Made by a program: the position numbers and the translations under genes
Assembly: GCF_032854445.1 (NCBI RefSeq)
Contig: NC_088301.1
Location: forward strand, 14,132,281 to 14,196,280
Direction of reading: 5' to 3'
DNA length: 64,000 nt
Source of the DNA: Liolophura sinensis
Lineage: Eukaryota > Mollusca > Polyplacophora > Chitonida > Chitonidae
Notes under the pieces: model-generated
Seen by the model: only the letters and a program-made list of their open reading frames with translations
What the model was told of the DNA's origin: nothing
The model's database searches: none
Shown here: in pieces, positions 7,001 to 55,600 of the stretch
Position numbering within the stretch: the first letter of the stretch is position 1
Layout of the letters: the number at the start of each line of letters is the position of its first letter

Positions 7001-10000
7001 TGTTTGAATGTGTTTTTCAATGCTGTCTGCAATATTTAACCTTTGGTGGGTAAACTGGAAATTTAGCTAAACTGGAAATATCTTTAGATTGTATCAGAGG
7101 TTGCCAAAGGCAGCTGTAGGCCATGTCAGCTGAAAGTCTTCCAGTGCGTTTTGAGGGATGCAACCATCCATGTGATATATGGGGGACTTGTCTTGGCGAT
7201 GCTTGTCTTACATACATTTTAGCTCTGTTTCACCAACTTCACCAATAATACTGCCGTCACATTGCATGTGTTTGAATATTGTTAATATTGTAAAATGGGC
7301 GAAGGTAGTACAGAAGTGCAGGATTGTTAAAGAAAACCTTATATGCTGGTACACTGTTAAGATATACTGACCAGTAATCAGAGTTTTGATGTAAATAAAA
7401 AAAGAAATAGGTTGGAACTTCTGTACTAAGGGTGTAAGTTTGCAGTAGTGTACAGAAGAATTCCACGTGTAAGAAGGCCTGAAAAGGAAACACTTTTTTT
7501 TGCTTTAACAGAATAATGGAGCTGGAGGAAGATGGATCAGGAGAATACCTTAAGCAGGTGCTACTGAGCTGTATTTACAATGTGACAGCCAGGCACATCA
7601 GCAAGTTAGAGAGTGGTAAGTTAGTTATTACTGTCATGCAGATCTGTAATGCTTGAAGGATTTAGTTTGTGGGTCACACTTGGATTTGAACTTAAATCTT
7701 CACATCCTATGTCTAGCCGAAATTCCTTGTACATGTATAAGCACTGGAAAGCTGCTCCCACGTAACTCTTCCCCAGTTAAATCGCTCCTCTCTCCCAGTA
7801 GGCTTCCATTGTTTGGTAATTTTTATGTCTAGCCTCAAGCTTAGTAAACATTTTGTTACCAGCTTTGTCAGTGTTAGGGTCAAACTAGTTACTATGTCTT
7901 TCATTCACAGATTTCATTTCCACATTGGAAGTCCAGTGCTGTACAAGCTCTGCTAAAGGGAAATTGCTTTAGCTGCTGCTGTTACTGGTATGAAAAACTG
8001 GAAAGCTGCTTCCATTACAAGTGTACTAATGCAAAGCAGACCTCCAGATGACCTCACTACTTTATCAATCACTTGTTTTCTGTGTGTTACAGATGAAACA
8101 GAAGAGCTGGAGCTGAACGTAGAGTTGATTGTGCAGTGTATTCGGTCATCTGATAACCCCCAGACCCATCACCACGCCCTACTAGTGCTGACCCAGGGGG
8201 CCAAACTACAACCGGTAAGTCAGGAGAGCACAACCACTGACTTTGTCTTTGATTTTTTTTTAACGCAATGCTCAAGAAGTTTTCTCTTATATTACTGTGG
8301 TTTATGGGTGGTCTATACCAGAGTACTTGGGGGTAAACAACTGAGGTACCTGGCAAACATCTGGACTTAAATCCATAGCTAAAAGAGAGAGGGCTGGATT
8401 ACGCAACCTCATTGGCCAAGGGCTTGATAGCCGCATCGAGGCGGCTCTTTAATCGTCTTAGCCAGCGAGGTTTCTTTGGGTGTTTAAACAGGTTCCTGCT
8501 AGGACTTGTAAAGTCTAAGTTGAACTTATACTCTCTCGAAAAAAGAAACTGAAATTGTGTATTGCAGATGCAAATTATAGACTGATGACATCACAGATGA
8601 GCACTGCATATGTACATATAATGTAAATGTTCAGTCAATAAATAATGAAATTGTTGACAATGATACCCAGAATACAGTTTAAGCAAAAGATAACCATAAA
8701 CTTTAAAACCCATAAAAAACAAATTCTGTATAAATATAAATAATTTTTGGATATGCCCCGTCATTAGGCGGTGGATATTTTTTCTGTCTGTCTGTCCGTG
8801 TTCGTGCCCCGGCTATACCTCCAGAGACTTTCAATATTTGATGGATACGCAGATGACACGACTCACATTTGTCCCTTTCGGTGGTTGTCATAGTGACCAT
8901 ACCTGGGCTATAACTTCAGCTGTTTTCTGCATAGAGTTTTAATTTTTGTTGGATGCAAACATGCACAGACGAAGATGTGTCGTACCATGATAACCAGATT
9001 GCTATTTTCCTGATATCTACTGTATAGTAAGGCATGAACTTTGTGTCCTGGCTACAACTCCGATGTATACTGGATACTTTGATACAGAGGTGACAATGTG
9101 TTGTGCCTAATATTTGTGCATTTTTACCGTTGACAAGGTAACCAATACATCTACATAAATATATATATATATATATCATGTCTGGGCTATAACTGTTTAT
9201 TTCCCACGTGCAAGTTTAATTTTTGGTGGATACATAGATACAGATGCAATGATATGGTGTGACTCCCATTTGTTCATTGCGACGGTTGCCATTGTAACCG
9301 CATACCTATCATCAACACTCATGAAGATTCACTTCAGGGGTTATACTAACCACAATGCTACTGGTATTCTTTTATACATTTCAAACAAATGCATTTGTTC
9401 AGACATATGTTGTGTTCACCTGAACTCTTATCTTATTTTATTTTTTTGGTGAAACAGACTACAGGTGATTTATTTCAGCATAATCTGTTTTATGTATATG
9501 AAATATTATTGAATAAGAATTGGGTGGGTGGACCAAGGAGGACTTGAGAGAGTTTAAAATTTGTTCATAGATACTCCCTCTCTTGGTAGGTAGAGAGTAT
9601 GCTACTCTGTAACAAAAATTATTATAGATAATAATCAGCTCAGAGTTCATCAATAAACTTAATGATTTGAATCTTTCTATAAATGAGAATTAATTATTTC
9701 TGTTTTTAGGAGCATTTACTTCACAACGTGATGTCAATTTTCACATTTATGGGAGCAAACATTCTGCGTCAGGATGACAGTTACAGTTTTCACGTCATGA
9801 GCCAAATTCTGGAGACTGTTATTCCGTCCCTTGTAAAGGTAAGCAGCTTTGGAGACAGTATTCCTTCCCTTGTGAAGGTAAGCAGCTTTGGAGACCAGTA
9901 TTCCTTCCCTTGTAAAGGTAAGCAGCTTTGGAGACCATTATTCTGCCCCTTGTGAAGGTAAGCAGCTTTGGAGACCAGTATTCCTTCCCTTGTGAAGGTA

Positions 10001-13000
10001 AGCGGCCTTAGAGACCATTATTCTGTCCCTTGTGAAGGTAAGCAGCTTTGGAGACCATTATTTCGCCCCTTGCAAAGGTAAGCAGCTTTGGAGACCATTC
10101 CGCCCCTTGTGAAGGTAAGCAGCCTTGGAGACAGTTATTCCGCCCCTTGTGAAGGTAAGGAGCTTTGGAGACCATTATTTCGCCCCTTGTGAAGGTAAGG
10201 AGCTTTGGAGACCATTATTCCGCCCCTTGTAAAGGTAAGCAGCCTTGGAGACAGTTATTCCGCCCCTTGTGAAGGTAAGCAGCTTTGGAGACCATTATTC
10301 CGCCCCTTGTGAAGGTAAGCAGCCTTGGAGACAGTTATTCCGCCCCTTGTTAAGGTAAGCAGCTTTGGAGACCATTATTCCGCCCTTCGTGTAGGTAAGC
10401 AGCCTTGGAGACAGTTATTCCGCCCCTTGTGAAGGTAAGCAGCTTTGGAGACCATTATTCTGTCCATTGTGAAGGTAAGCAGCCTTAGAGACTACTATTC
10501 TGTCCCTTGCGAAGGTAAGCAGCCTTGGAGACCATTATTCTGTCCCTTGTGAAGGTAAGCAGCTTTGGAGACCATTATTCCTTCCCTTGTGAAGGTAAGC
10601 AGCTTTGGAGACCATTATTCTGTCCATTGTGAAGGTAAGCAGCCTTAGAGACTATTATTCTGTCCATTGTGAAGGTAAGCAGCCTTGGAGACTACTATTC
10701 TGTCCCTTGTGAAGGTAAGCAGCCTTGGAGACCATTATTCTGTCCCTTGTGAAGGTAAGCATCCTTGGAGACCATTATTCTGTCCCTTGTGAAGGTAAGC
10801 AACTTTGGAGACCATTATTCTGTCCCTTGTGAAGGTAAGCAGCTTTGGAGACTATTATTCTGTCCCTTGTTGACATATATGTAATAAAATAAGATTTTGA
10901 ATGAACCGTCACCATCACTGCTGCCATAATTTATTTCAAGCATAGTGATACTGCTACACTCTTTTTTACCACATGACCTAGCTGTGTATTCCTGAAATCG
11001 CTTCCTCTGTTTGTTTGGGTCTGCCAGCAGACAGCTGGTATAAGTGAAATATCCTACAGTGCAAAATACCAATCAAATAAAGAAATATATAAATCATTTT
11101 GCCTATTTCCATAGGCCTGTGAAACACAGAAAATGGCTGAGGTGGAAGAGGTGATTACCCTGGTGATTCGTGTGTTTGTGGACTCCTATCCTCACATTCC
11201 ATCCCATCGCCGCCTCATGCTCTTTACCAAGTTAGTGAGGATTGTGGGAGAAGACAAGTACTTATGGAGGATACTGCTGATGCTGACAAACTTTATGATC
11301 ACCAAGGTCACGCCAAGGTCACAGGAGATGGTGGAAGCAGAGGATAGTAAAGTAAGATAGAGTAAAGAAAATTGAGGAGATAGAGTGATGAAAGCATTGT
11401 CTGCAATAACAATTTCCGCATTTGAAATTTCAAGAAGCAGTTTTAGGAATGAGTATTTGTAAGAGATTCTTTTTTGAAATGAAAATTGACTTAATTTAAT
11501 AGAACTCAGTGGAAAAAAAACCTAAGCAGACAACTTACTTCAATAAAAATTCTGTTCTATTTTTAGGCCTCCAATCTGATTGGTATCTCTGACATGGAGT
11601 TCTACTTGAGACTGTCAACAAGTTTTCCTCCTGGCCAGCAGTTAATGGCTGCTAAGGATGCTTTGGTCTACCTGGCGTCACTTCCTGAAAGGAAACAGGA
11701 TAAAGGTGAGATCTGGCAAGTTACTAACCAACTCGCCAACATGTAATGTACTGATATGCACGCCATGGAAGTGATCTTTAACCGATGTTACAATTTTGTC
11801 ACCAAGGCCCCATAAGCAGTCAGAGGATGGGAATCTAAAGTTCCCATACCTATTGTGTCATATCGACTGAAAGGCAAGATGCTCTAAGCACTAGACAACG
11901 GCTCACCACACTCCCATAATAGCGATGTGGAATTTTGTCAAAAGTGGTTTAGGTATACTGATGGGAACTATTTTTTTTTTCTTTGTGAAAGGTTTATGAA
12001 ATGGAACTAAAATTATGAAGAAAATGATTTTTAGAGGAGATCCAAAATGTTAGGCACCTTCTTCCTCTTCCTTCCCCCACCCCAAATAAAAAAGAATTCA
12101 TTGTTGAGGCATGTTTTATGTATCATAACAACTACTCCGTTTTATGGATGTTTTCAGTCAGTAGTCAGAAATTTTTGGGATCATTGATTTCCAAATGGAA
12201 AATTGGAATCAGTTTAGTGCCTTTTCCCCTTAGGGCCTTAGGAAAGCAGTAGTTTAAAGCCATATGTTTGCGTGAAGAGAGAAGATGAGAAGCTTTTTGT
12301 ACTTTTTATATTAGGACAAATTATATACACTGCACATTAAAAAAGAAAAAGCTAAATGTTTTGTGCATCCTTTAAGTTCTTGTGGACCTGTGTGATAGAC
12401 AAAGCAGGCCACACGCGAGTACTGTCGTCTGATACATGATTATGTCTCTTTCTAGTGGTTACGCCTAAAAGAAGTCCTAAAGGTGTGACCTTAAGGACAA
12501 GTGCAGGAGAGAAATATGATACCGAAATCTTCAGCGTTGATGTACACACAGCCAAACAGTTGCGTCATTTCAAATACGCTGCAGTCAGCCTATTGGTCAG
12601 TTTATTTGAAAGTGACAGTTTCATTGGTCAGGTGAGTGAGTGTTCAAATGACAAATGATTTTATGTGTTTTGGTGCCTGCAGTGTAACTAACAGATGTCC
12701 TGTGTGGTCATAAGGTTGATAGCTCTCTCTGTGTACGTTAGGTCATCAGATTACATGTTTTTCTTCATTGCCGATGCGGTGTTAAGCAGTAATCATTCAT
12801 TCAGTGCAGTCTGTGACAACATTTTGTGTGAAGAACTTGTAGGAACTTATTGGGAACATATGTGGCCTGATGATGTTTTTATGTTAATGATGATATAAAA
12901 CCATCCTCAGCAAAATGAAGGAGACGTGGAGGGAGGATATATGTGCCAAGCCCAGTCTCTTTGGCTTTAGGTGTCATTGAGGCAGCATCGTAAATATCTT

Positions 13001-16000
13001 GATGTTGATACTGAACATTTCAAGGAGGCAGCCAACAAATAATGTTGGAAGCAGAGCTAAATCTCAACAAACTGTCATCTAAGCATTCCTAGAGGTAAGG
13101 TGTAAGTGGCTTGCCTTCCATCACTAGGAGACTCTTCCTCAGGTTCAAACCCAGCCTTGAAAAGGGAATTTGTAGATTCTACTGGTCTAATTTTTTGTGG
13201 GACCTTAGCTAGAGCGCTAATTTGACCTGTTCCACATTTGGATGCTCATTGAAAATCACTTGTTTTCCACCAATTTGGAATGTATGTCTGTGTTTGACAT
13301 GTGGGAAAGTTTGTCACTGATTTGCCAGAGGTTGGTGGTTTGGGCAGGGCATTCTTATTTCCGCCACCTGTAAAATTGACTGCCTTCATATAAGCAAATA
13401 AGTCTTGATCAAGGCTTTAAGGAGCATTCAGATAAATAAATAAATATAAAAAGTATTTAAAAAAGAATTTTTGGCATCATTTGAAACCAAATGTTAATGT
13501 TCTATTATTTGCTGGAAAGTTTTTTTTTTGAAGACATCTGAATGAAGTGCTTTAGATGTATTTAATAGTTGTGTACATTAGTGTTTGATAAATTTACAAT
13601 TGATTATGTGCCCGCCTTTCTGTCATCTGTAAAAATAAATTTGCTCTGAAATTTCCGTGAAACACAGTTTTTAAAGGTTTGAGAATTCTTTACAGGAATA
13701 GCATGAAAAAACAGGTACTGAGTACATGTACATGTAAAAATTGCAAATGGAGGTGGGTCATGTACCTGATAAAGGGTGCTAGAGCATGATTGTAACTCCC
13801 AACTTGATGGAGTATGGCGTAAAGCTGTGATCTCCTGTGCTCTGACACGTTTCCTCCTACCATCGTGCTGGCAACCATCATATAAGTAAAATATTCTTGA
13901 ATACAGTGTGAAAGACACTAATAAAGTGAAATAGTCAAATAAGTAAAACTCATCAAATAAATGAATACTGTACTTCACCTAAAGATTGATATGTAAAAAT
14001 GCATATTCAGAAGCACATAAAAGCCTTAAAATTATACTTCTGATTCCAACACTAAAGCCTTTCTGACAAGAAATTGATCGAACTTCAGAAAATGACATTT
14101 AATTGGCCATAAGGGATGGATGGATCATTCAGGACGAAGCAAAATGTGTCTCTTGAAAGAAAGTTAACTTGATGTAAAATAAAGTTCATCAAAACTGTAT
14201 TAAGAAAGGTTGACTTATATGGTTCATTGCAAATGTGAGAATGTACATCATTTACAGTCCAGTGGTCGGTTGTTGTCACAGGTGGCTGAGTGTGAAGAGG
14301 CTGACATGCTGTCATATTATAAGGAATTGTTGAAGACCATCATGGAATACATCACCAAGCTGTCGCGGAGTGCGGAGGAAAACCAGAGCAATCCTACCTC
14401 CAGGTTCTGGAGAGCTCTTCTACACAAGGTGTATGATCTCTTGGAGAAGGTGAGAACTAATTGTCACCAAGAGATTGCTATGGAAATGAGTACTGTTTGG
14501 TTAATCAGTGTAAAGTTTTTATGGCTAGATCAATAAATTAAAGTCAATGAAAGCTTCCTGACATTTTTGACAAGTCACATGATACGGCAGCACATTTTAA
14601 ACCTTCATCGACAAGAGAGTTTGATCTCAAAAATTTCCTGTTAAATCAATAGGTGTTGACTTCATACCAAGCCCTTTGCTGCCTTAGCTGTCCAAAGCAA
14701 GCCAGTCAGCCCCTCATTGTGTGGTAGCAGGCCCAGATGCTCTTGCTTTTGCTTTGTTAACGGTTTTGTTAGGTTTGTTAAAAACAAAACAAAAACAGAG
14801 TAGTTTTTTTTTCTGGGCGTTCCAAAAATTTTGAATACAGCATTGAATACCAATCAAATACGGGAAAAGTATAAAAAGATAAAGAAGTGTTACTCATCAG
14901 CTCACATTTTGCATTTAATAACCTGGAATTTCTGTGTCCAATTTTACCTGGTTTAGCACTTCCTTTTTCGTTTGTAATTTTGCTCAGTGCTTTAGTAATT
15001 TCCCATATAATCCATGTATTCTTGCCATGGGTGAAATAGTCATTAAGGCGAAAATATGCCATGCATAAATTTTGAAGCCTTGGTGACGTTACAAATAAAT
15101 ATTGTAAACATACATGTAGTAATGGGAGGGATGTAAACTGCTGTTGTTGTTGTAGGTGGTGTCGCTGTTGCAAAACCAGACTTTCTATGATGTGATCTCT
15201 GCCCTGATCATGCATGATTTGCCCCATGTTCAGAGGCGTGCCATGGAGCTACTGAACGCCAAACTACAAACACAGAAGGAGATCGCATCAGATACAGAGG
15301 TCAGCGGCCATTTCATATGTTACTTAACAAAGCCAGCTTTATACATGTACTTCCTCATTTAATTGTTTCACCCTCTCATTATAATTTTTCAGCACTTCTT
15401 TGTGTTTACCTTAAGTACAAAGATCAAATCAAAGTTTCGTTGCGTGATATACATCACTGACTTCACAAGTAAGGACATACTGTAACACTTCAACGTTTTC
15501 ACATGTTTGCGAGGTGTTTATTCAAGCATGTTCTGAAGGCATTATTGTGTGTAGACTCATAAAATATATTTTTTGTATCTATATTTTTTGTGATGCCCTG
15601 AAATTGGCCAACCCAACCAATATAGTTTTGTCTCAAAGATCAAAATAAAAGTGTGCATAAATTGCATTGAAAATTGCTCTTTCATGTGCAAAAAGGTTGA
15701 GGAATTATGGTAACATGACTGTCCATACATGCACTGCTTCGATGTCAAAATCAGTCCTGCTGTATTTGTAGTTATCTTGGTAATGGAGTTACTTTTTCGC
15801 TCACGATGGGGATTCAGGCCCAAGCCAGGATGACCACGGTTCCTTTGCCATACATAAGCACTACATTACCAGTTTTTCCGAGAGAATATTAAAGCAAATT
15901 CAGAAATGAACAATCACTTTGCGTGGGAAAGCTATAGCATTGAATTTACTGTTTGCTTTGTTGTTGATCTCCATAATTAAAGAGGTATAATGTTTGTATT

Positions 16001-19000
16001 TCAGGTTAACATACTGCTGTCGGTTGTCCATGAACTGTCAGATATTGTCACTCAGACGGTCTTACGTTCAAATGTTGGCGAGGAGAATGCTGTTAATGGA
16101 CAGACAGCCTTGTTTGGGTTGAAACTGCTCTCCAGACATCTCGCAAGCAAACACCCACAGCCATTCCTTAAGGTAAATTCTTCATTATAAACTCGTATCC
16201 AGTTCATGCTGGCTTCCTCTTCGGGGGAATGTCAGCCAGCTGCCCCCGGGGTCGTTCGCTTCCCCTGAGCTCTGCCAGGTCTGCTGTCATCATAATTTTG
16301 GTCATCGTCGTATTATTTTTTAAACATTTAAATTTAAGGCAGGTTTAATTGTTTGATTCTTAGATTTTGTGTTTGAATGACTGTATCTGTTTTATAAATT
16401 TGCCTGAAAGAGTTCATTATTAGAGGCAAGGAAAGGCCAAGAAATATTAATTTTGGGCTAAAACTTAATTTTTCCAGTTGGGTATCATCCTGCCTTTTGT
16501 CAACAGCAAACAGAGTCAAAACACCTTTTTTTTTAGATCAGTAGACTCCATGAGTCTATTGATCTACAGAGTCCTGGAAAACGAATAACTTAGTCATTGA
16601 GAAAATCAAATAAGTGCAACTAAAAGGATAACTTTTGAGGCTTCGCTTATAATTAAGCTTTTCCTTATAACAGGTGTTACAGTTAGCAACGCATGTATTT
16701 GAGACGAGAAGTGACAACCCCCAGGTGGCAGCCTGCGGCTTGCTGTGTTTAGCGGAGGCGTGTAACAGCCTAAAGGTTCATGCCATTCAGCTACTGTCCA
16801 CCTTTGTGCCCAAACTTCTCCAGGTGTTCCAGGATGGAGAGGCACTGCTCAGGTTAGTTTTGTCTGTAAAAGGCTTGGGTATCGTTAAGATATACATGGA
16901 GTACTTGTAGGTCACAATAAGCAGAGTCATGCACATTGAGACAACTTAAAGTGCCACAATGTTATTGGCTTTATTCAGTCAGTCAGTTATTTGTAAAACT
17001 CGTGGACATGCCTGTTTCTACTTACTTCACAAAATCCGTGTTTTGTGTTTTAACCATATGAGTGGCACAACGTTGTGTTTCCAGTGGCTCTAACATGGTG
17101 CATGTAAGAATGTTTTTTTCCAGTTGCTCATTTTGCATGGCCTTGTAAGAATTCCTTATTAGAATTTGATTTATAGAGCTTTGGAATTAATGTCTGTGAT
17201 CGTATAAATCTGTTTCTTCTAGTCTTCCTAAATAAGTCATGTTATGTTATTTGTTGTATTTTCTTATAAATAAATGTATTTTGTATTTCTTTTTCACCGG
17301 TTTTGTAGGATGTGTCGTCACATTCACTGTGCCTTCTGGCCAGTGGTAGTCAAGTGTCATGTTATCAATTGCCTATATCAAGTTTGTGATAAAACATTTT
17401 TTTTCCCCTCTTTATATATATTTGAATTTGTTTCGAACACATATTTTAATCATTCCATATGACGTATTGTTTTTGTTTTCAGTAAGGAACTTCTTGCATT
17501 GAGTGCTGCCACAGCCCTACACAAACTTGTGGAGAATCTCACATACTTCATTAGTCCATATCTTCTGGATATCCTTCACCAGGTGAGGTTCTATACCTAC
17601 TGAATATCCTTCACCAGGTGAGGTTCTATACCTACTGAATATCCTTTACCAGGTGAGGTTCTGTATCTACTGGATATCCTTCACCAGGTGAGCCCCTATA
17701 TCTACTGAATATCCTTCTCCAGGTGAGGCTCTATATCTACTGAATATCATTCTCCAGGTGAGGCTCTATATCTGCTGACTATCCCTCACCAGGTGAGGTC
17801 CTATATCTACTGGATATCCTTCACCAGGTGAGGCCCTATATCTACTGGATATCCTTCACCAGGTGAGGTTCTGTATCTGCTGGATATTCTTCATCAGGTG
17901 AGGCTCTTTAGCCTACTGAATATCCTTCACTAGATGAGGTTCTATATCTACTTGATATCCTTCACCAGGTGAGGCCCTGTATCTACTGAATATCCCTCAC
18001 CAGGCAAGGCCCTATATCTATTGGATACCCTTCACCAGGTGAGGCTCTATATCTACTGGATATCCGTCACCAGGTGAGGCTCTGTATCTATTGGATATCC
18101 TTCACCAGGTGAGGCTCTGTATCTACTGGATATCCTTCACCAGGTGAGATCTTATATCTACTGGATATCCTATATCTACTGGATATCCTTCACCAGGTGA
18201 GGCCCTATATCTACTGGATATCCTTCACCAGTTGAGGCCGTACATCTACTGGATATCCTTCGCCAGGTGAGGCTCTATATCTACTGGATATCTTTCACCA
18301 GGTGTGGCCTTATATCTACTGGATATCCTTCACCAGGTGAGGCCCTATATCTACTGGATATCCCTCACCAGGTGAGGCCCTATATCTACTGGATATCCTT
18401 CACCAGGTGAGGCCCTATATATACTAGATATCCTTCACCAGGTGAGGCTCTGTATCTACTGGATATCCTTCACCAGGTGAGGCTCCATATCTACTGGATA
18501 TCTTTCACCAGGTGAGGCTCTCACACTATTTCTGCTATGGATTTACAGAATTATGCATAAAAGGATACTTGAAAAGTAACTCTCCATAGACTTCTTTCAC
18601 ACCTATCACTGTTGACCTCAACGTTGCAGGCTACTTAATTTCTGGACTGGCCACTTAAGACACGAGGAAAACTGTATTTCAAAGCCTGGATTTTAGATAT
18701 CTAACGTCCATTGTGATCGGACCGTATGCCCATGGTCCAGTCATTCGGCTGTGATCCACTCCCTAAAGCCATCCTGACACTATGTCTGCCTATAGTGGGC
18801 CCATCACGGTACCACCATGGGCGTATCATCCTGCCATCCTGATGAGAATTTGCTGTGGTTGTTACAAACTTATTCACGGCAAATGCATTGTGTCTCCATG
18901 TATCAACAAGAACTATTTTTTTCCTAATAGACAATCTCACAAAATTTGAATCCATATGAAAAGCATTTTTTTCATAAAGCATACATATGCTGAGTATATA

Positions 19001-22000
19001 TAATGCAATATAGTTTTTAATCTTGCATGTTCAGTACAGATTAGGTACACAACTGACTCATAAGTTATTCTAGATATTGTGCAAAAAGTACATTGTTGTA
19101 GTGTTTTCATGGTGATTTCGGGCAGGATACATATACATGTAGATAAAGTTTGAAACTGGATGTCTAACTAAGGAAAAATTCTACAGGCAAGCAGACTCTT
19201 GGATTTTAATACAGAATATTATTATATGTGAAGTGAATATATTTAATAGTAAGAGAAATCCTGCTGCCAGCAGCCAATGAAATGACTGGCTTTCAGACCA
19301 ATCAGGTGTACAGTAACCAGTCACAGGGACGGTCATGTTGACCAACCAATAAAAGAGCAGGCAGTCTCTTAACCAACCAGTCAGATGAGGGCAGGATACA
19401 TATAGATCAGACACCTGCAGCACATGACCTAGTCTCCATAGTGAAGCTTATCAGGGCAGTCACAATTTAAAAGTTAGGGGCCCTCCGTGGCTCAGTCGGT
19501 TAGCGCGCTAGCACAGCGTAATGACCCAGGAGCCTCCCACCAATGCTGTCGCTGTGAGTTCAAGTCCAGCTCATGCTGGCTTCCTCTCCGGCCGTAAGTG
19601 GGAAGGTCTTCCAGCAACCTGCGGATTGTCGTGGGTTTCCCCCAGGCTGTGCCCGGTTTCCACCCACCATAATGCTGGCCGCCGTCGTATAAGTGAAATG
19701 TTCTTGAGTATGGCTTAAAACACCAATCAAATAAATAAATAAATAAATTTAAAAGTTAGTGTGGCTCCAAATTTGAATGCTGAAAAGTTTGAAAGGAAAT
19801 AGCCAATTGAAGCTCTCAGCTCTCATCAACCAACCCCATCTCCACCAATAAAATGGCTGGGCTTCTTTTTAGGTCATAATATGTCATTTCTCTGGTAAGG
19901 TATTTCATGTCGGTCATTGTGTCAGTGCATTCGGTCATGACCATGGCACCTACTAACATGAACAACAGTCCACCACATGTCATTAGGTAATGTTCTTTTG
20001 TTATTAATAATTTTCTTCATATATTTTTGTCAGGTGTGTCATATGACCAGTTTGATGGAGAGAAGTCCCAATCTACAGAAACCTCAGCTCACCTTTAGAT
20101 TGACAGCAATCAGGTCAGCTTAGGGACGGGTACATAAAAAATGTGTAGGCCTTGATGGGCAGTATTATCATGGTGTCTAACTTTTTAGCTCACCTGTACG
20201 AAGTAAATTGAGGTATTCTCAAAAGGTGGAAAAGTGGGGGTGTCGGTGTTGGTGTCTTGGTAAGCTCTATTTTTTTAGCTCCTGTATAGTGGGATCTTTT
20301 GGATGGAAAGTTAAGCTTTTTTTTTTAGACCTACCAAGAAGGCTATTTGCTCAACCAATCATAAAGTTGCAATAGCCACCTGTTGTACACTGATAGCCAA
20401 TCATGGGTAGCAATTTGCATATCAAAGACCACTCAAGCGAGTTGGTGCTCTAACTCCCCACAAGGAATTATTGTACTATCATAGCTCAACATTTGCTCAG
20501 CCTCTCATATCAGCCTTTTTGCACATCAAAGATCTCTGCCTTAAGTTTGTGCACTGGCTCCCCACAATGATGTCTTTCGCCACAGCACTGATTTACAACA
20601 TACAAAGTCACCGCTGAGTGCTCCGCAATCTTTATGCATATGATAAACAGTCATATTTGTGACAGTGTAATACTTTTGGCCTTTCTTGTTGAATTAGTTG
20701 CAAGATCTTATCTATTTACACCATCTAGTTAGAGGCTAATGCCTGTGTCTGACGATGTCATTCTACTTTATTGTGGCTTAGATGTCAGTATTTGAACACA
20801 TTACCTGACTTAAGAATCAAGCAGCTTTACTAACTGCTCAGTCAGAAAATCCACAGGTGTTCTGTAATTCCTTTGATTACACATATTATGTCATGCACGT
20901 ATTTAGTAAAACACCAGTCAAATAAGGTAAATAAATATTTAGTGCAATTGCACTCAGTGAGGTTACAGTAAAATGTAAGTGCATTATTTTCTATCTGAAA
21001 ATTGGGTGATCACACATACAAAATTTCCAGTTATATGGAGTGTTACTGGCTTTTTAGCCACTTTGCTTTTTAACCACTTTGCACATTTATAATTTTGTTA
21101 ATTGGTTATGTTTTTTGTAGTATTTGTAAAAATCAGTACTGTAATACTGAAGGATCCCTGTGTGACCCTACTGAAACGAAGTATTCTCCTGTTACTATGG
21201 TTACCGCTGTACAGCGCAAGAACTGGAATACAGTGTATGTGTGTGAATCCTACAATGGTGACTTTATTGTGTGTTTTAATCCGGTTAAATCTGTTTACAT
21301 ACTGATTGTGTACATACTATATGTTGTTTTCTTTTATTACCCCAGAAACATCCTGGCTACTAATGTCCCCAGCAGAGTCCTGATTCCTTCCCTTGTCCAG
21401 TGTTATGACAAAATGTCCGCCAGTGATTGGGTATGTATTATGCTAATGACCTAATTTAGACCCCCAAAATTGAATTTTAAGGGGCAAACAAACGGCATAT
21501 AGTACCACTGTTAGTGGTAAGACATTTTTCTGGCAGGATATCGTCCTACCTTCTGTAGAAACCTCATAGCAACTTCCTAAGATCACTAGAACTTTCAGGA
21601 TCAGGTTGTTGTGAAACATAGTCATGGCTAAAAGTTTTAGGCCATTTGGAGACTGAGGGAGTATAGGGCCTATTACGGATTCAGGTTCTCGGGAGTTCCA
21701 TGTTGGGGCGCTTGCGCATATACTGGAAATTGGGGTTAGAATCCTGGCGGGTGATGGCCTTCGCGTACAGAAGTGTTGGGCGAAATGGAGTGTGTTCTCA
21801 GTTAAAAAAAAACAACTGCCCTACCTTTGCTGATGACTTATTTGTTTTCTTATCTTTTGTGGTGATGTCCATGTGTGTCAGTAGTTTATTTAGATCAGAC
21901 TAAGCATTATCCAGCACACCTGTCACGATCTAAGGTTACCGCATGAAGGCCTAAAAAACAGGCTTCCCGGTAACACATGGGCATAAGGTCAAACGTCAAA

Positions 22001-25000
22001 GTTTAGGAATGAATTAAGTATCCATGTAAGGACTATTTATAAAATATAGGCCTATATTAAATCCGTTTTTGATTTTAAATTTTTCGTATAGACAAATTTG
22101 TTTTTGAGAAGAGAGGGAACACTGAAATGCACCCAGAGAGGTAGGGCCCAGGCTAAGCTGTGCTGGTACTGGTGGAAGTTCATATCCTTGAGCATGCCTT
22201 CACTAACCTGACAAAATGGGTTTATGAGATTAAAGCTAATCTGATTAAGAACTGGTACGACAACCCCTACCCCTCTCCATCCACCAAGACATAATCTAGA
22301 TTTAGATTTTATCAGTATAATCCTTTTGATTTGAACAATGTACATCTTCTGGCATTAACCACTCATATGTACTTACAAATCTAGAACACCATGTAAAATG
22401 ATGACTTTCTCCATATTCCACTTCAAACAAAATTCGTCATGGATGCGTTAAGTGAGAACACGCTCCAGTCACCCAACACTTCTGTACGCGAAGGCCGTTA
22501 ACTGCCGGGATTCTAACCCCAAGTTCCGGTATATATGCGTGAGCGCCCCTACGTGGAACTCCTGAAAACCTGAATCCGTAATAGGCCCTATAGATGTTCA
22601 TGGTCAGAGTACTGCTCTGTAGTCAAAGCGTTCACGGCCTGTTCCAAGAAGCCATTTCTGTCTTAATTCAAGGTATGCTGTGGACTATGATGTGTGTAAT
22701 CTATGTTGTTCTTGTTTTGTTACAGCAGTGTGTTATTCCGCTGATGGCGCTGTTAGCAGAACACTTCAGGCAGATAAACAAGGACCAGTTAAACAGCTAT
22801 CACTCTCAGATTGTAGACTTCTTCTACACCTGCCTGGATTTCAGATTTCTTCATTCACAGGTATGGGTACAAATTTTGAGAAGCCAGTCTCAGATGATTG
22901 TTGTGTGTTGTGCTCATAGGTGAACTGAAAATTACTGGTTTTGTATTTCAGATTACTTGTTAGTCCAGTGTGGAGTAGTAATTACCATAATGATAACTGA
23001 AAACTATATCCTCTTGTTTTTTTTTTTTAAATTATTTTACTTAATGGTCGAAATTAATGTAGACAAATGTCAGAATTGTTCAGTGGATTGTATGTTAACA
23101 AAGAAACCATTCTGACATACCTAAGTAATGAGTCACGACCTCATTTTTCAGATCCTTGTCTTTCAATTGCAAGGACATTAAAAGTGGGGATTCAGTGCAG
23201 CTAATTTATAGATTTCCCTGCTCTCATTATTCATATTGTCTTGGTAACAGCATTTATTTATTTATGCGATTGGTGTTTTTTCGAGGTACTCAAGAATATT
23301 TCACTTATACGGCTGCGGTCAGCATTCTGGTGGGAGGAAACTGGGCAGAGCCCAGGGGAAACCCACAACCATTGGCTGGTTTCTGCCAGACCTTCTCACA
23401 TACCGCCTTAGTGGAAGCCAACATAAGCGGGGATTTGAACTCACAGCGACCACATTGGTGAGAGGCTCCTGGGTTATTGCACAGCGCTGATGCGCTAATC
23501 ACCTTGGCCATATAGGCCTCTGTGTTTACGGGAAGCGATGGAGGGTGCTTGTGTGGCTGTTCGCGCAATCTAACTTTCACCAGTGTGGCATACAAGTGTG
23601 TACATCACGTGTCTGTCAGTAACTTGCCAAAGGATGGTGCTTTACCCAAGGACACTCTGGTTTCCTCCGCAAATAAAAGTGATCACTATCATATAAGTGA
23701 CAAATTTTTGAACTTCATTCAAATAAATATGATGACAAATAATCCTGAGTGTGTCTTGAGATTTTCTATTGGCAATGAAGTCAGAATTAACTCTGAAGTC
23801 TGGACTAAAGTGCCTTTAGTTTTGTGTTAGGCCAAGACTGGTATTATAAGATTTAATACACTTTTGACAACCATAATATTTTTGCTAATGTCAGGTACCA
23901 TCTAGTGCTGTGTCAGCCGTTGAGGCCAGTGTGATAGAAGCAATCATTACCATGGTGATGAAAATGTCAGAAGCCACTTTTAGACCAATGATATTCAAGG
24001 TAAGACTGTCAACAAACATTTCTTCAGCTAAAACAGAACTCATTTATAATCAGATAGTTAAGTGATGTGGCTTAGAGTTTCTCTGTGTAACCATGATGCA
24101 GAAGATGAGTTACAAAAATCGATACGAACCCAATCTGCAGATTTTACATAAGCTATGAGTGTTACGCTAGGCCTGGGTCAGCTGTAGTTGATGTTACTGT
24201 AATTCTTCAACAGTTGGGCATATTTCCACTGTGTTTATTCAAGCATATTCTGAAGGCAATACTGGATGTAGACGGATAAAATTATACTTTTTGTGAAGCC
24301 CTGAAGTTGGCTAGTCCAACCAATGTAGTTTTATGTCCAAAATCAAATTAAAAAGGTGCATAAATAGTGTTGAAAATTGCTTTTTCATATGCGAAAAGAT
24401 TGAGGAATTAGGGCACTTGTGGCATTAGTTGTCTTAGACTTAACTGATAGCCCCTATACCTAATTACATCATTGTCTGTCGCAAGACATTGTGGCTAAAA
24501 GTTGCTTTCATGCCTTGTTAGTATGTTAGGGGAGGAGTCATTTGAGTTGTGGATTCACAATATGGACGGTTAACATGTGGCATGGTAAATTTAAGACGGT
24601 TAACATGTGGCATGGTAAATTTAAGACGGTTAACATGTGGCATGGTAAATTTAAGACGGTTAACATGTGGCATGGTAAATTTAAGACAGTTTACATGTGG
24701 CATGGTAAATTTAAGAAGCTCCCGAAAACCACATATGCTACTCATATACAAAATCTACTCATACTAACCAGATAATAAAGAAAAACGGTGCCTTCACACG
24801 TTGATCTGAAAGTTATAATGTTGTCAATTGGATATCCTTCCTGGCTTCCACATAAACCTCCAAACACCACTCGACAGTCAATACATCTCTCAGAATCAGG
24901 CAAAATTAGTCAAATTATGGACAAAATTTTAGATCATTTAGTGTAATTTTGATATATTTATTTATTCGATTGGTGTCTTACACTGTACTCAAGGATGTTT

Positions 25001-28000
25001 CACTTTTACGACAGCGGCCAGCATTACGGTTGTAGGATGCAGTATTTTTGAAAGTGATGTTTAATCTTGAGGAATCAAACCAGCTTTGTCCAGTTATTGG
25101 GTAATTACTCATAATGCTTCATGGTTTTTCAGCTCTGCGACTGGGCAACCCGCCACGAAGAGAACAAAGACCGGGTCTTGGTGTTCTACAGACTTGCAGA
25201 CAGGTACGGGTTTTGGACTTTCGGAGCACACCTCGACTAATTTTGGTGTAAAAACAAAATATTTTCTTCTTTGTATCTTGATCACAATTGGCTTGTTCCT
25301 TTTGTTCCATAACATATACGAGGAATTTCATAATAATCACCCAGGCATTGGCACGCCTTGATGAAGACACGAAAAGTAACTTGATGAATGTATGCTGCTT
25401 GCTCTGGTTTCTCCCTCCATAAGACCGACTGCCATTGGATAAGTGAAAAACTTCTTGCGTGTGGTGTTAAGCCAAATTGAATCAAATACATAAATGATGG
25501 GGGCCTTCTGAAGCCTCATGCTGGCTTCTTCTCTGGCTGTATGTGGGAAGGTGTAACAGCAACCTGCAGATGATTCTAGCTTTTCCCTGGGTTCCGCCTG
25601 TTTTCCTCCTAACATAATGATGGTCACCGTCATGTCTGGTGTGTCATGTCTGGTGTAATTATACTGTGACTGGATCGAGTGTCATGTCTGGTGTCCATAT
25701 GTTGTTGCAAGGTTATGTGTCATGTCTGGTGGTGCGACCTGCCCCGATGGCTCATTTGGTAGAATGTCTGCTTCAGGGAGGTAGATCCAGGGTCAGTCCT
25801 GAGTCGGGTCACATCTAAGGCCTTACGAGAGGAAGTTGTGGCTGCCTCGTTTGGCATTCAGCCTTAAGGGGATAGTGCAACGACTGGTTGACCTGTATCA
25901 GTATAAAGGCTTGGGTGGGGCACCTTACTTGCCTTGAGTAAGTCATCTCAGTGAAGCATCACTTGACAAGAGTGATGGAAATCCGTCCTGCAACAAGGAG
26001 GCAAATCACATTATACTGTGATTAAACTCCATCATACATTTTTCTGTCTCATCGGCACCAATGCGGCCGTACATGGAAAGGTCTGGCAGCAGCCTGCGGA
26101 TGGTTTGGGGTTTCCCGCAAGCTCTGCTTGGTTTCCTTCCACCATAATGCTGGGCACTATCGTACCAATGAAATATTCTTGAGTACGGCATAAAACACCA
26201 ATCAAATAAATAAATCAAATATTGGCACCAATGGGTGTATGACTTCAGTACGGATGTGCTGACATGTACATTGTTAGATATTATCTGTCAAAACAACCAG
26301 TGCCATGCAACTAGTGGAGTGATAACAACACATACCCCATCATTGTCATTTTGTAATATGTAACTTAAATAAGGAAACAAATTACACTTTGTGGTGTATT
26401 TGACATAATTAAATTTTCACCTGGATTTATGTGATTAAATTTGTATTATGACAACTAATATTTTGTTTTGTAGGTTGGCAGAGAAGCTGCGTAGTTTATT
26501 CACTTTATTTGCTGGTCACATTATCAAACACACAGCCAGGATGCTGGATGAGAACAACAATTCCAAAGATGGTAAACAATAACCCAGAATTCTACACTTT
26601 TGTTATTTTTATAATTTGATCTTCCTTCAGTAATTTTTGTTCGTAATCAAATTCCCTGAACGTAAAAAACTGACAGTCAGTTTTAAAGTGTATTTTGACA
26701 TGGTAAGTAAGTACAAAATAATTTTCTAAGCATAAACTGAGTGTCGATTGGTCAAGATGAGCAACACTTGATCAGTTGTGTTTGAAGTTCAAATCCACCT
26801 CAGCTGAATTTTTTATTTATTAGAAAGTTGTTTGGGAGGGAATGTTTTTTCTTCTCCATTTAAATAATAATGAATGATGAATGTAAGCTTGTGAAATAGA
26901 AAGAGAAAAAAAACAATAACGGAAAGTGGAAGTAATTTATTTTCTCTGCGCTTGTTAAGCATCATCAAGCGGTCAGTTATCCGTCAGTTGTCAGATGTTG
27001 CATGGTTTTTTAATTGTCATTTCTTTAGGTGATCTATTCTTTGGAAGTGGTAGAGAAGCTGAGCAGAAGGCCGATCAATTGCTGATATACTTGTACAGTT
27101 ATCTATACAAGTGCTTCCTTTATGACAGCGAGGGATTTGTCAGCAAAGAGAGATTTCAGACACTGATGCAGCCGTTATGTGACCAGGTGAGAACAATTGG
27201 CCAGGTGAGAACCTTCGGCAAGGTTATGTAACAAGGTGAGAATCATTGAGGTTATGTAGCTAGGGGAGAGTCAAGTTATATGATCAGGTGAGAACAATTG
27301 GCCAGCTTATGTGACCTGGTGAGAACATTCAGCCAAGTTATGTGACCAGATGAGAACATTTAGCCAGGCTGTGTGACCAGATGAGAACATACAGCCAGGT
27401 TATGTTATGAGTTGAGAACCATCAGCCTGGCTATGTAACCAGGTGAGAACAATTAGCAGGGTTATGTGACAAGTTGAGACAATCAGCCAGATTATATGAC
27501 TAGGTGAGAACAATCAGCCAGATTGTGTGACCATTTGAGAACAATCAGCCAGATTGTGTGGCCGGGTGAGAACAATCAGTCAGGTTATGTGATCCAGGTG
27601 TGAACAGTCGACCAGGTTTTGTGACCAAGTGAGAGCGTTCAGCCAGGTTAGGTACCAAGGTGAGATCAGTCAGTTAAGCTCTGTGACCAGTTGAGAACAA
27701 TCAGCTAGGTTGTGTGACCAGGTGAGACCAATCAGTCAGGTTGTGTGACCAGGTAAGAACTATCAGCCAGGACATGTGACTAGGCGCGAACAACCAGCCA
27801 AACTATGTGATGAGGTGGGAATATTGTGTATTTGTACTTCATGCACAAGTTATGTGACCAGGTGAGAATATTCAGCCAAACTAATATGACAAAACATTGT
27901 ATCCCTCAAAGGGGGGTAGCAGTTTTGAAATTCAGCTACTGTTCGTTTCCTCTTGGCTCTGCCTAGTCTTCCACCCATATGTGTAAATCTGATGACCGGT

Positions 28001-34704: not shown

Positions 34705-37700
34705 ATGACGCACAACGAAGAAAGAACTCACTGGTTTAAGGAAGCTGGCATTGGCTTGGGAGGTATTTATAGGTCTCTAGTTTGTACGCGTAGTAACGTA
34801 TAAACTCATCAAGGTCAGACAAGTATTTATACTGTATGATATGATGGCTGCTACGATATATATCATGCAAGTTATGTATTGATAAACATAATGATGCACA
34901 ATGATGAATCCTGGATCAAACTATATGTGTTCTAGGTACAGGAAATTTAACTCTGGCTTGGCAGACTATTTTAAATTACCATCTTGAAGGCATTCAGAGT
35001 CTTATGAAGGTGAAATTAAATCAAGAATCAAGAACTTAATTGTAGGCCTAATGTTTAAATGTTATACAGTTAAAATTTCAGCTATTCATTATATAAGTTT
35101 GGCAAGTGCCATCTGTCCCATTGTGTTATATTCCTTGTCAGAAATTGCTATATATATATATATTCAATAAATTCTATTTTAAATAAATCAGTGATAGCAT
35201 TGAAAATCGATTTTATAGATTGTCTGAACATTAAAAATATTCAATGTAAGAATTGAGATCTTGTATACACATGCAATGTTAATTTGTCTGTGTCAAGTAT
35301 AGGCTTGCTACCTCTGTATTTATACATAAGATATTCACTCAGTCAGTAAACAGATCATTTGGCTCTCTGAATTAATGCATTGTATGACTCGATCAGTAGT
35401 CCTTGAACAAAATCGCAAATTAATTTATGCAGATTAATGAACACGTCATCTGCTAGTTAATTAATTGAATTTAATTTTGTCTTCAACAGTTGGTTTCCTG
35501 TATGGCATTACCAATGTGGTGGTAGGTCATCCCTTTGACACAATAAAGACCAAAATGCAAGCTCAGGCTGGGTTTGAAAAGACCAGTATGTTTCAGTCAT
35601 TTGTAAAGACAGTAAGGACACAAGGTGTGATTGGCTTATACAGGTACAGTCTGCAGTCTCTGTCCTCCACAACAAGGGTGTCATTAAAAATATGTGTGTT
35701 GGGCCTACCCTCCAAAAAGGCCCAAGTTTGTTTTATTTTTATTTTTTCATTTTATTATTATTTTTCTGTCCTTGTTAATATTGTTAAAGTCGCCATCTTT
35801 TTCATTAGTCATACAAAAACATTTCCTACGAACAAGTACATGGAGGCCTACCTTGCTCCTCTTTTCTCAATCAGCTGCCTTTGGTTGGTTACAAAAAAAG
35901 CATTTGTCATTAGTATGGTGTAATATGTCTTAGATTAAAATGTTTATATATATCCTTTTGTACACTTTTCTGGTATGCGAAGAATGAAAAAAAAATTATT
36001 TATCATAAATTTATACATGTAAGCTACTTAATAATGCCTGTTGAATGTATAGAGCCTATAGTATTGGTATCTTTGTGATTTTCAGGGGCTGTGTACCACC
36101 CTTGTGGGGATCAGGAATATATAGATCTACACAGTTTGCTGTTTTTGAGGGAGTGTAAGTTATACAATCTTATTAGGTATTAGTCCCCTACCAGAGGTTT
36201 ACATCTCATCTGTCCGTCAGTCTGTCTGTCTGCCAAGAATCGATTTTTCAGATATGTATTCAAAAACAATTAATCATGTTGAGTTTTAGGCCGTTTCACT
36301 CATTTTCATCAATACTATGGCCATTTTTAGACTTTGACAGTTTTCCAGAATGGTTCATCATTTTGAATTAAAACTTCTTAAATGGCATGACAAATTTAGT
36401 TGGCCAGCACAGTTATGTCCATTATTATTCTGTTTTAGGCTATTGTTCTGATAGCTCAAACTGATTGTGAAAGTTTTTCACTTTTGCAAGGCTTCCAGAA
36501 TGCTTGTTGATCAAGATTTCTACCCTATTTCTTGTAATATTTGGGACAGCTGGTCTGCTCTTTTGAGCCAGTACAGATGTAATGGTAGCAGGAATATTTA
36601 GTTTCTGTTATCTCACATTGTAAGTCCATCTAAGCAACCACATACTCATATCTTTACTTTTCCAAAAAGCTGGGAAAGAAATGAAATATTCTGCTTTCAG
36701 CGATAATAATATCTGTCCCCAAAATAAGAAGAATGAGGGTAGTCTGTAATTAACCTGTAAAGTTAAACCATGACAGCAGTTCACTGTAACCATGCAGTGT
36801 CATGTTTCTGTATACCAGTAGTATGTATGTAAAGCAAATGTAACATTTGTGTTTGCATAAGTCTTCCCAGTACGTAGGCTGCATGTAACAGCAAGCTGTT
36901 GCCATTGGATGGGTCAGCTTTTAGGTTACAGGAGTGCATTGATTTTCCTTATTATTTATGCAGTAAATTTGTCCACTTTAACCTAAAACAATTTGTATCC
37001 TGTATGAACTTTCACGTGGTACCATGCCATACCTCCATGGCAGGTTACATGTTCTCAACATTTCAAAAAATCAATCTAGCATGACCTTTATTTTCTTGAG
37101 CTGCCATTGCTGGAAGTGAAGTGATAACATTTTGTTACCTTGGTAACCTTCACGGGGGGAAAGAGGGGATGGGGTGGGGTGGGGGGTTGTGGGTTGTGGT
37201 AATAGAACTGGGCAAACAGATTTCAGTTTTATCCAGAACTAACAAAATTCTGATCTAGTTGAACTAGGTGCAAAATAGCAGTGCAGAAATTTATGAGGTT
37301 GTTGATGGACAATCTAAATTGTCAGTGTGGCAGTACTATCCAATCAGTGCTCCTTCACACTTCAGTTCCAAGACAAATCTTGGACCCAGTTGGCCAAATT
37401 GCAAATGCGTAACTGTTCTGCCCTTACCTCAACTGATTGGGGACTAGAAATGCAGATGTTTGGGGATAGAGAAGTCCGCATTGCTTAGGCTGTGCTTTAA
37501 CAGCCATAACATAACAGTGTGCTATTGATGGTTTCCATGTCCGATCAACCTAACCATTGCTTACGTGATTAATTAAGAAATGAAAGACGAATTTGGATGA
37601 ATTCAGTTGAAAACAGGCAATTAAAGTATAACAACAAGGAATAAAAGTATAAAATCTTTGTGTTGGATTCTTACACTTTACCACACACATACACACACAC

Positions 37701-52570: not shown

Positions 52571-52681
52571 TCACGTGGTTATCAAACATGTGACGCACAG
52601 TTTAGAAGGTCCTATACAGTCGTCATGGCAGAAGGCCCCACACTTCTTGCACATGACTAAAGCTTTCAGACTGCAGGCACA
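52571..52681 (-). other. ASXL: ASXL C-terminal PHD finger (domain)
   Basis: The last 36 codons hold the Cys/His pattern C-x-C ... C-x2-C ... H ... C ... C-x2-C ([26 protein letters not shown]), almost residue-for-residue as in vertebrate ASXL1. The protein ends four residues after the last Cys. Confidence 0.95.
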
Positions 52682-55600
52682 TGAAGATCCTCCACTGGTG
52701 GTCTGCACAGAAGTCCTGACCGGGGCAGTGGTCAATGCATTGCCCGATGAGGTGACCAGCATAGTAGAGGGCACCCGACTTTGGGACATTAAACTGAGCA
52801 CGGGAGCAGCCGTAGCTATCACAGATACCGTCTCCGATCGCTGCTTCAATAACTGGGTCACTTTAGCCTCCATTTGCTTACTGACTTTGAGATCAACCTT
52901 CTTGACACTGCTGACTGCATTGGCTTGATGGACAGAAGCTGCCAAGGGGTGAAGACTGATGCTGCCCGAAACCAAGGTCTGAATGTGACCATTGGACTCA
53001 GGGAGTACCACCTCACCCATCTTGACACCAGACCTACCTACGACGGTTGGAGGCTTGGGGAGGTCTGGCGCAGTAGCAGTGCCAGCTTTGGATAAAAAAT
53101 TGATCTCTTCTGGGCTGAGATTTCTGCTGTGGTTTTCCCTACGCTCTGGAGGAGTGGGTATATGGCCACTGTTTGTCACAGTAATGGGTGTGTCAATGTC
53201 CAGACTGGCACAGCCCACTCCACCAACACTGGCTGAGCGCGACACTTCTGCTGGTTGTACTATCACACGTGGCTGGGCATCTGTCGGGGGAGGAGCACTT
53301 GACGCCCTTGTGGGAATAGCAGCCCCCAGGGAACCTGGTGGGTGCGACAGTACAATTTGCTGGGGTATCAGCACTTGAGTCCAGTTTGGGCCAGCCAGGG
53401 CCACCTTAGCGGGCTGAGCGGCAGCCGGCACAGGTGTGACAAATGTAACATTGGGATTGGTCACCGCGTTGTTCACAGTGCTACCACTTGCCACCTGTAA
53501 TATCAACTGCTGCCCGGTCCCAGCCAGGGTAATTGGCACCATGGTAGTGCCCTGACCGCAGTCCTCCAGTGCTGCAGACGTCGTCGTGAAAACCGTGGCT
53601 GTCTCTGCACCACTCTTTACCACGTTTTGAACCGTGACGTTTTGTACAGGGACATCCACAGCAGGCTGAGGCGCAGCAGTGACTGAAGCAGCCTGACTCG
53701 CTTGTGAGAAGAGAAGTTTTGATGCACTCATCTGCGACTGGTTGACAGCCGGCTGCACTTTGCTGCTCGCAACAGCAGACACAACTGCATTGCTGGTGAG
53801 ATTCGGGGAATTTGCAGTGACAAGCTGTGGACTGGTGCAGTGTGTGGCGGGCGAAGGGGAGCCACCCTTACCTTGAAGTATAGACACCATGGAACTGTTG
53901 TTTCTGCTCCGCTCTATCATCTTCTGACAGATCTCTCGTGACCGTTGAACGTTGATACCATCCGCATTCATCTGTGGGGAGTCGGAGCCTGAGCTTGACC
54001 CACTGCGTGTGGACTGCTTGGGGCGGCTGGCACCCATGATATTTGGCTGGTGTTTTCCGTTACTGCCTGGGACATTCTGCGGACTTCGAGCCTGCACTTT
54101 TGCCTTAGTCTGAGCCTTTATCTGTGCCAGCGTCCGTGTGCGCGTCTGGCCGTGGAGAGCTCTGGCAGCTTTAGTTTGTGCTCGAATCTGAGCCAGCGTT
54201 CTGGTTTGTCCCTGAGCTTGTGGGGAAGCAGGTTGGGTGGGGGAGGCAGTGCCCTGGGGAGGAGGGGAGGCTGAGGTGGCCAGAGCACCGGCTAATGAGG
54301 TCTGTACACTGGACTGCTGCACACTAGTGCCAGGGTAAACTGTCACACACACAGCTCGGGACGCATTGCTCGGCGGCTTGTGCACTCGCGCCGCCTGCGT
54401 CTGGGCCTTGATCTGCGCTAGGGTCTTGGCTTGCGATTGTCTACCCTGACTTCCCGAGGTCACCACACGAGAGCGCTTGGGTGGACTTAATCTTTCCTGA
54501 GTAATTCTTCCTGTGTCGGCTGTTGGCACAGACAATGGACGTTTTGTTGTAGACACACTCTCCTGAAGCATACGCTCTCTCCCTGTGGTGAGACTTCCTT
54601 GCGCGTTCGCCTTTGGTGTATTCAGAAGTGCTTGGATACTGGAGGCCTTGGGGACTGTGGCATGGTTAGCCGTGGAGGCTGCTACATTCTGGGATATAGA
54701 CCTCTGCTTCAGCATAGTGGAGACAAGCTTTGGCCGCTTCACCTGAGGCTTCACCTTAAGGGGTGACACAGTAGGCTGTAGGGGTGACATGGGTCGAGCC
54801 TGGTGTATCGGGGATGTGGCCTTAGGGACATCATATGGGGTTCTGGCAAAACAGACAGACAAGAAAAATGATCGAGAGTCGTCACAACTCTAATGTCAAT
54901 GAATGTGTATTAGTGACCTCTCTTATGTCGCATAATGAAGTGAGGAATATTTCTCACCTAAATAAGTTTGTTCTAAACTGTATAAAAATACATCAGTCTC
55001 CTACACTGCTTGTGTATTAACTCATATTTATTTATTTATTATTTTCCTACTGTTTACATGCTTACTACTTATTCAGGGAACAGCAAAATCTATTTGTTCT
55101 ATTTGACAATCCTCCTCAAATCAATCCATTTCATTTCCAATTATATCATTATCAAATTAACCTTTTCCACATCTAAGCTGATATTTTCATGTTAATTTAT
55201 CAATTCATTTATTTGTTTGGTGTTTTTATGCCGTACTGAAGAATATTTCTTTTACACAACGGCCAGCAGCAATATGATGGGAGGAAACCGATTTTCAAGT
55301 TTAGTATCAGATATTATTCCCAGAATTAAGCACACTATAAAAATACTACATTATGTTATTTCTTAATGACCACCTGATCAATACAAAAACTCACGCAACC
55401 TTTCAAATTAAAAAAAGAACTGAAATTGGTTACCAGATATTTGCAAACTAAAACACTGAAATCATTTACCCCAAAAAACAAGTATGTAAATAAAACTAAT
55501 AATCATAGAACTCATACCTTTTCCCCCATGCGGGCTCAAAATGCTTTGTCTGAAAGAAAACAAAAATAGCTTGCTATGTACATGTATTAAAATGCATTAC

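Follow-up and report, generated by a model that had tools for sequence, protein, structure and literature searches.

Minisatellites of the kind termed mirages were reportedly first described by Canestro and others in 2002. According to the accessible portions of two papers, the mirages of amphioxus are minisatellites spanning exon–intron boundaries, at 5′ as well as 3′ boundaries, and are found in Adh3, the globin genes BflGb6 and BflGb9, PGBD5 and, by citation, troponin C; their copy number varies from one haplotype to another, and splicing is believed to proceed undisturbed (PMC3087553, PMC3902484). Here we describe three such arrays in the HEATR1 gene of the chiton Liolophura sinensis, within a stretch of 64,000 nucleotides (contig NC_088301.1, positions 14,132,281 to 14,196,280, forward strand; hereafter the window). 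Like the amphioxus mirages, the chiton arrays are tandem copies of a unit that spans an exon–intron boundary, with AG/GT signals repeated many times, and at the level of the genome they occur at both 5′ and 3′ boundaries, although within HEATR1 only donors were seen; unlike them, they are found in a mollusc, with three in a single gene, and their excess has been measured over a whole genome. The HEATR1 arrays belong to this known kind, and as such the remark in a preceding sequence-only reading of the window, that no description of such a trio was known, does not stand as far as the kind is concerned. As far as the openly licensed literature shows, the novelty lies in the animal group and in the scale. 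We found no report of boundary-spanning minisatellites in a mollusc in that literature; an abalone minisatellite is, in the accessible part of its description, intronic with a printed unit that lacks AGGT (PMC6905558), and the terms 'tandem repeat' and 'satellite' are absent from the available text of a comparative chiton genome paper (PMC12005716).

The three arrays, delimited by Tandem Repeats Finder (TRF), unit alignment and a motif scan, all lie on the forward strand and have unrelated units of 40, 35 and 31 bp, each starting inside a HEATR1 exon. Array 1 (9810–10870, as in the TRF row of period 40 with 26.6 copies) begins within the coding exon 9710–9838, and each unit comprises 29 exon and 11 intron bases. 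Array 2 (17559–18521; TRF row 17558–18521) begins within the coding exon 17483–17582 and contains ∼27 copies of a unit made of 24 exon and 11 intron bases, plus an internal partial copy of 18 bp. Array 3 (27174–27878; TRF rows 27185–27224 and 27275–27821), which begins within the coding exon 27029–27186, consists of ∼24 decayed copies with 13 exon and 18 intron bases per unit. In all three cases the first copy lies across the real donor, with the exon ends at 9810–9838, 17559–17582 and 27174–27186 being followed directly by GTAAGC (from 9839), GTGAGG (from 17583) and GTGAGA (from 27187), respectively. Across the window AGGTRAG was found 90 times, against 15.3 expected from shuffles, with 59 of these occurrences inside the three arrays, 3 of which are the real donors. 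The remainder are decoys, and these are intact in 25 of 25, 22 of 27 and 9 of 23 copies of arrays 1, 2 and 3; array 1 indeed keeps AGGTAAG in all 26 of its full copies, whereas array 3 has AGGTRAG in just 10 of 24, real donor included.

The identity of the gene rests on protein matches. When joined, the exons flanking array 1 match human HEATR1 (7mq8_LM) with an E-value of 5.6e-22 and those flanking array 3 with one of 1.5e-31, and the 33 aa exon before array 2 matches the same protein on its own with an E-value of 0.0023. Additionally, matches to the Pfam family HEAT_HEATR1 were found in the exon that follows array 1 and in one other exon stretch. Spliced from the first donor, the exons on either side of arrays 1 and 3 join in frame, and the protein is continuous there. 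Use of a decoy would cause a frameshift or run into a stop codon in 54 of 56 cases, which suggests, on the logic of the reading frame, that productive splicing should rely on the outermost donor. Thus, the claim that three unrelated minisatellites have a founder unit lying across a HEATR1 junction and including its donor is confirmed by TRF, the sequence and the human matches. The same reading had put the start of array 1 one base further on, at 9811, and had credited each intron with some 20–27 opening copies of its own donor; the decayed array 3 has fewer. The HEATR1 region also contains a fourth minisatellite (24565–24716, forward strand; 30-bp unit, 5.1 copies), which has neither AGGTRAG nor a recognised exon and serves as a counter-example. 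Even so, the probability that three of four arrays would lie at junctions under uniform placement is ∼0.005, assuming 45 introns (which we take to be the human count) in 29 kb, in line with the earlier expectation that three junction arrays are unlikely to arise by chance.

To place the locus in its genomic setting, we searched the whole L. sinensis assembly (632 contigs, 609,464,459 bases, one haplotype); the animal was first published as L. japonica and its name has since been corrected (PMC12441733). Using a pattern of three tandem CAGGTRAG motifs with gaps of 12 to 42 bases on both strands, we obtained 2668 matches, compared with 562 for the reversed motif. Three motifs with the +1 G changed gave 2273 matches together (758 per motif; reversed, 683), and three with the +2 T changed gave 1198 (399 per motif; reversed, 730), such that donor-motif triples are 4.6 times commoner than the mean of the six one-base-changed motifs, and 3.5- to 6.7-fold by group. 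For the acceptor-like TTTYCAGG, tandem matches numbered 682; the reversed motif, the sole control in that comparison, gave 144. When clusters were grouped by hand among the matches listed for the first 4.54 Mb of contig C1, an interval ending at the last listed donor match, we counted 14 donor-motif arrays and 21 for the six neighbours (3.5 each; p=1.7e-4). Dropping the final donor array, by which the interval is delimited, gives 13 of 34 (p=5e-4).

We also examined 13 of 18 drawn positions, 10 kb each and 130 kb in all (L037–L046 and L058–L060), a sample that is not uniform, with six stretches coming from C7 and the rest from the first 20 Mb of their own contigs. It contained 30 minisatellite arrays occupying 15.9 % of its bases. 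This is far above the 0.08 % given to the class of simple repeats, microsatellites and RNA in the accessible published repeat table, in which a further 14 % is unclassified (PMC11068029); the sampled minisatellites may sit in that unclassified portion. Three or more AGGTRAG were present in 4 of the 30 arrays; for 420 permuted motifs the number of such arrays averaged 0.62, with a fraction of 0.019 of the motifs reaching 4. At least 7 of the 30 have an edge in a coding exon at its splice site, two at donors and five at acceptors, and in all seven the outermost copy is inside the exon. This count is a lower bound, as junction arrays were chosen by eye from open frames at the array edges, without a blind rule, in an inspection that covered part of the 30 arrays. 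Under uniform placement, with the gene number taken from PMC11068029 and the introns per gene assumed, 1.4 to 3.6 junction arrays would be expected, giving P values of 0.0007 to 0.07.

One of the two donor arrays (L058:6074) belongs to a gene that we take to be STX16-like, its exon having no match in Pfam or PDB. The other (L059:1606) is at the donor of an exon of a gene that is presumably fumarate hydratase (FH), the Pfam assignment being Lyase_1; this exon continues the same Pfam domain as another exon of the gene, which carries an acceptor array (L059:1). The latter shows that an array holding the donor motif may be an acceptor array, for it contains AGGTGAG because the acceptor CAG meets an exon beginning GTGAG. 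A further acceptor array (L037:1349) adjoins an ankyrin exon (Pfam) in a mind-bomb-like gene, with a mind-bomb SH3 exon in the same stretch; elsewhere in this stretch, an array at L037:4031 has 13 AGGTGAG with no coding exon seen. The remaining three acceptor arrays (L039:3179, 6614 and 8892) are on the same strand (minus), at different exons, one of which has a weak TPR match below the cut-off; the other two have no Pfam match, and the one of these tried against PDB had none there either. This 10-kb stretch, with three unrelated minisatellites on acceptors, is a mirror image of the three donor arrays of HEATR1.

These observations are probably best explained if the arrays are mirages that stem from frequent tandem duplication and are tolerated where the extra copies fall into an intron. 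A short tandem duplication across an exon–intron boundary would found the minisatellite unit, and such duplications would have to arise and expand often in this chiton. Those wholly inside an exon would break the protein and be lost, whilst those across a donor or acceptor would leave the exon intact provided that splicing keeps the outermost, exon-side site; with that site in use, all extra copies would become intron and drift. Judged from the sequence, the outermost site is presumably the one used, and the donor arrays appear to have no function of their own. Because five of the seven sampled junction arrays sit at acceptors, it is the exon–intron junction that is special and not the donor, and the focus of the sequence-only reading on donors was too narrow. 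Its proposal of a mutational process favouring exon–intron junctions, by comparison, gains support genome-wide from the motif excess and the sampled junction arrays. A junction-directed mutational bias is likely, with exons or junctions seemingly hotter for duplication than intron interiors.

A number of results weigh against this explanation. The scrambled motif AGTGGRCA gave 1131 matches, above what a neighbour motif gives on average, and accounted for 7 arrays among the matches listed for the first 4.54 Mb of C1; its reverse gave 1513, but contains ACAGGTGA and so is no clean control. A clear exon start was visible by eye in only 2 of the 14 C1 donor-motif arrays, the sequence examined having stopped short of the array start for some of the other 12: one (L049) opens with a 70-aa open exon that has no Pfam or PDB match, and the other (L050) starts in a short exon after an acceptor. 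Under the strictest assumption, in which all arrays lie in genes filling half of the genome, the 3.6 junction arrays expected of 30 correspond to P=0.07. Lastly, four of five donor arrays keep their donor columns better than the remaining positions of the unit (pooled p=0.017), and splice columns are also the better conserved over all ten arrays (Fisher p=0.038), a pattern unexpected under pure neutrality. Columns from related copies lack independence in these statistics, and the sign test (7 of 10 arrays) gives 0.17 and acceptor arrays alone p=0.36; splice-column conservation is therefore a hint at most of constraint.

That hint bears on the suggestion, also made from the sequence alone, that the arrays are useful, with dense donors holding the U1 small nuclear ribonucleoprotein (snRNP) and protecting a long gene from early polyadenylation, or backing up the real donor. 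The perfect retention of AGGTAAG in array 1 speaks for such a use, as does the conservation of donor columns there (0.987 vs 0.905 elsewhere in the unit, p=0.043), in the STX16-like array (0.994 vs 0.892, p=0.010) and in the pooled set. It is countered by arrays 2 and 3, where donor columns show no significant excess of conservation (p 0.29 and 0.23), by the loss of most decoys from array 3 and by the preponderance of acceptors in the sample. Furthermore, the founder of the FH donor array is GTGAGT, and all 11 of its decoys that keep CAGGTRA read GTGACT (10) or GTGATT (1); this loss of the +5 G does not fit selection for strong decoys. We consider use for U1 or as backup to be quite improbable as the explanation of these arrays, although the donor arrays may have a role, if a weakly supported one. 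Strong selection for decoy donors is rejected on the decay of array 3 together with the FH changes, and a donor-only explanation on the acceptor arrays.

Duplication could instead be uniform in a genome full of arrays, with junction arrays as the survivors after exon-internal ones have been purged. The share of the sample filled by minisatellites agrees with this, as do the 23 of 30 arrays without a recognised junction (part of them looked at), yet uniform duplication leaves unexplained the seven junction arrays where 1.4 to 3.6 were expected, the three of four in the HEATR1 region and the excess of the donor motif over its one-base neighbours, and on balance we regard it as unlikely. On the same neighbour motifs, chance tandem repeats unrelated to splicing are rejected as well. 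An assembly or sequencing artefact, for which nothing was found in favour beyond the usual error-proneness of tandem repeats, has a negligible chance of being the answer: copies within arrays differ from one another, and the PacBio HiFi reads behind the assembly average 8,347 bp according to the accessible text (PMC11068029), against arrays of ∼0.7 to 1.1 kb.

The birthplace of minisatellites and the growth and gain of introns are open questions for which few natural systems exist. A chiton genome assembled from long reads, with many junction-born arrays of different ages, is one in which the excess, the birth rate and the decay of decoys would become measurable, along with which of dozens of near-identical donors the splicing machinery picks. 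Moreover, the chiton arrays would show that mirages such as those of amphioxus are not confined to cephalochordates. Introns of human genes derived from tandem arrays are reportedly the subject of Zhuo et al. (2007), to go by the title. PMC4974935 reportedly deals with introns gained when AGGT-containing segments are duplicated in tandem, and Rogers 1989 is cited for such gain in PMC3087553. The starting event in the chiton is of the same kind, namely a duplication holding a splice signal; the difference is that an existing boundary has been copied into an existing intron, with no new intron seen. A bolder conjecture, which we regard as conceivable though doubtful, is that a germ-line process coupled to exons, or to splicing and transcription, repeatedly makes short tandem duplications exactly at junctions. 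Perhaps a quarter of the minisatellites of the genome would then be overgrown junctions, a standing source of longer and possibly of new introns, with independent origins in amphioxus and in chitons.

With regard to the remainder of the window, exons of a mitochondrial carrier gene (35465–35923, forward strand) and of a gene with the PHD domain of Asx (52571–54889, reverse strand) lie downstream of HEATR1. In the half of the window downstream of HEATR1, TRF reported no array with three or more copies and a unit of at least 12 bp, and Rfam at gathering thresholds gave no match in the window. Elsewhere in the genome, the start of C1 is dense in tandem-motif matches, with at least ∼100 of the 2668 donor-motif matches in its first 4.54 Mb; for the scrambled motif, the first 3.2 Mb hold 82 of the 1131 matches, after which the matches listed show a gap extending to 22 Mb. 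Minisatellites may gather near this chromosome end. Contig C99 (108,685 bases) contains COX1 seven times in steps of ∼15.5 kb (L035, L036), by appearance head-to-tail copies of the mitochondrial genome, and is probably an assembly concatemer of it. The mitochondrial DNA also carries a long repeat of a short unit beside cox3.

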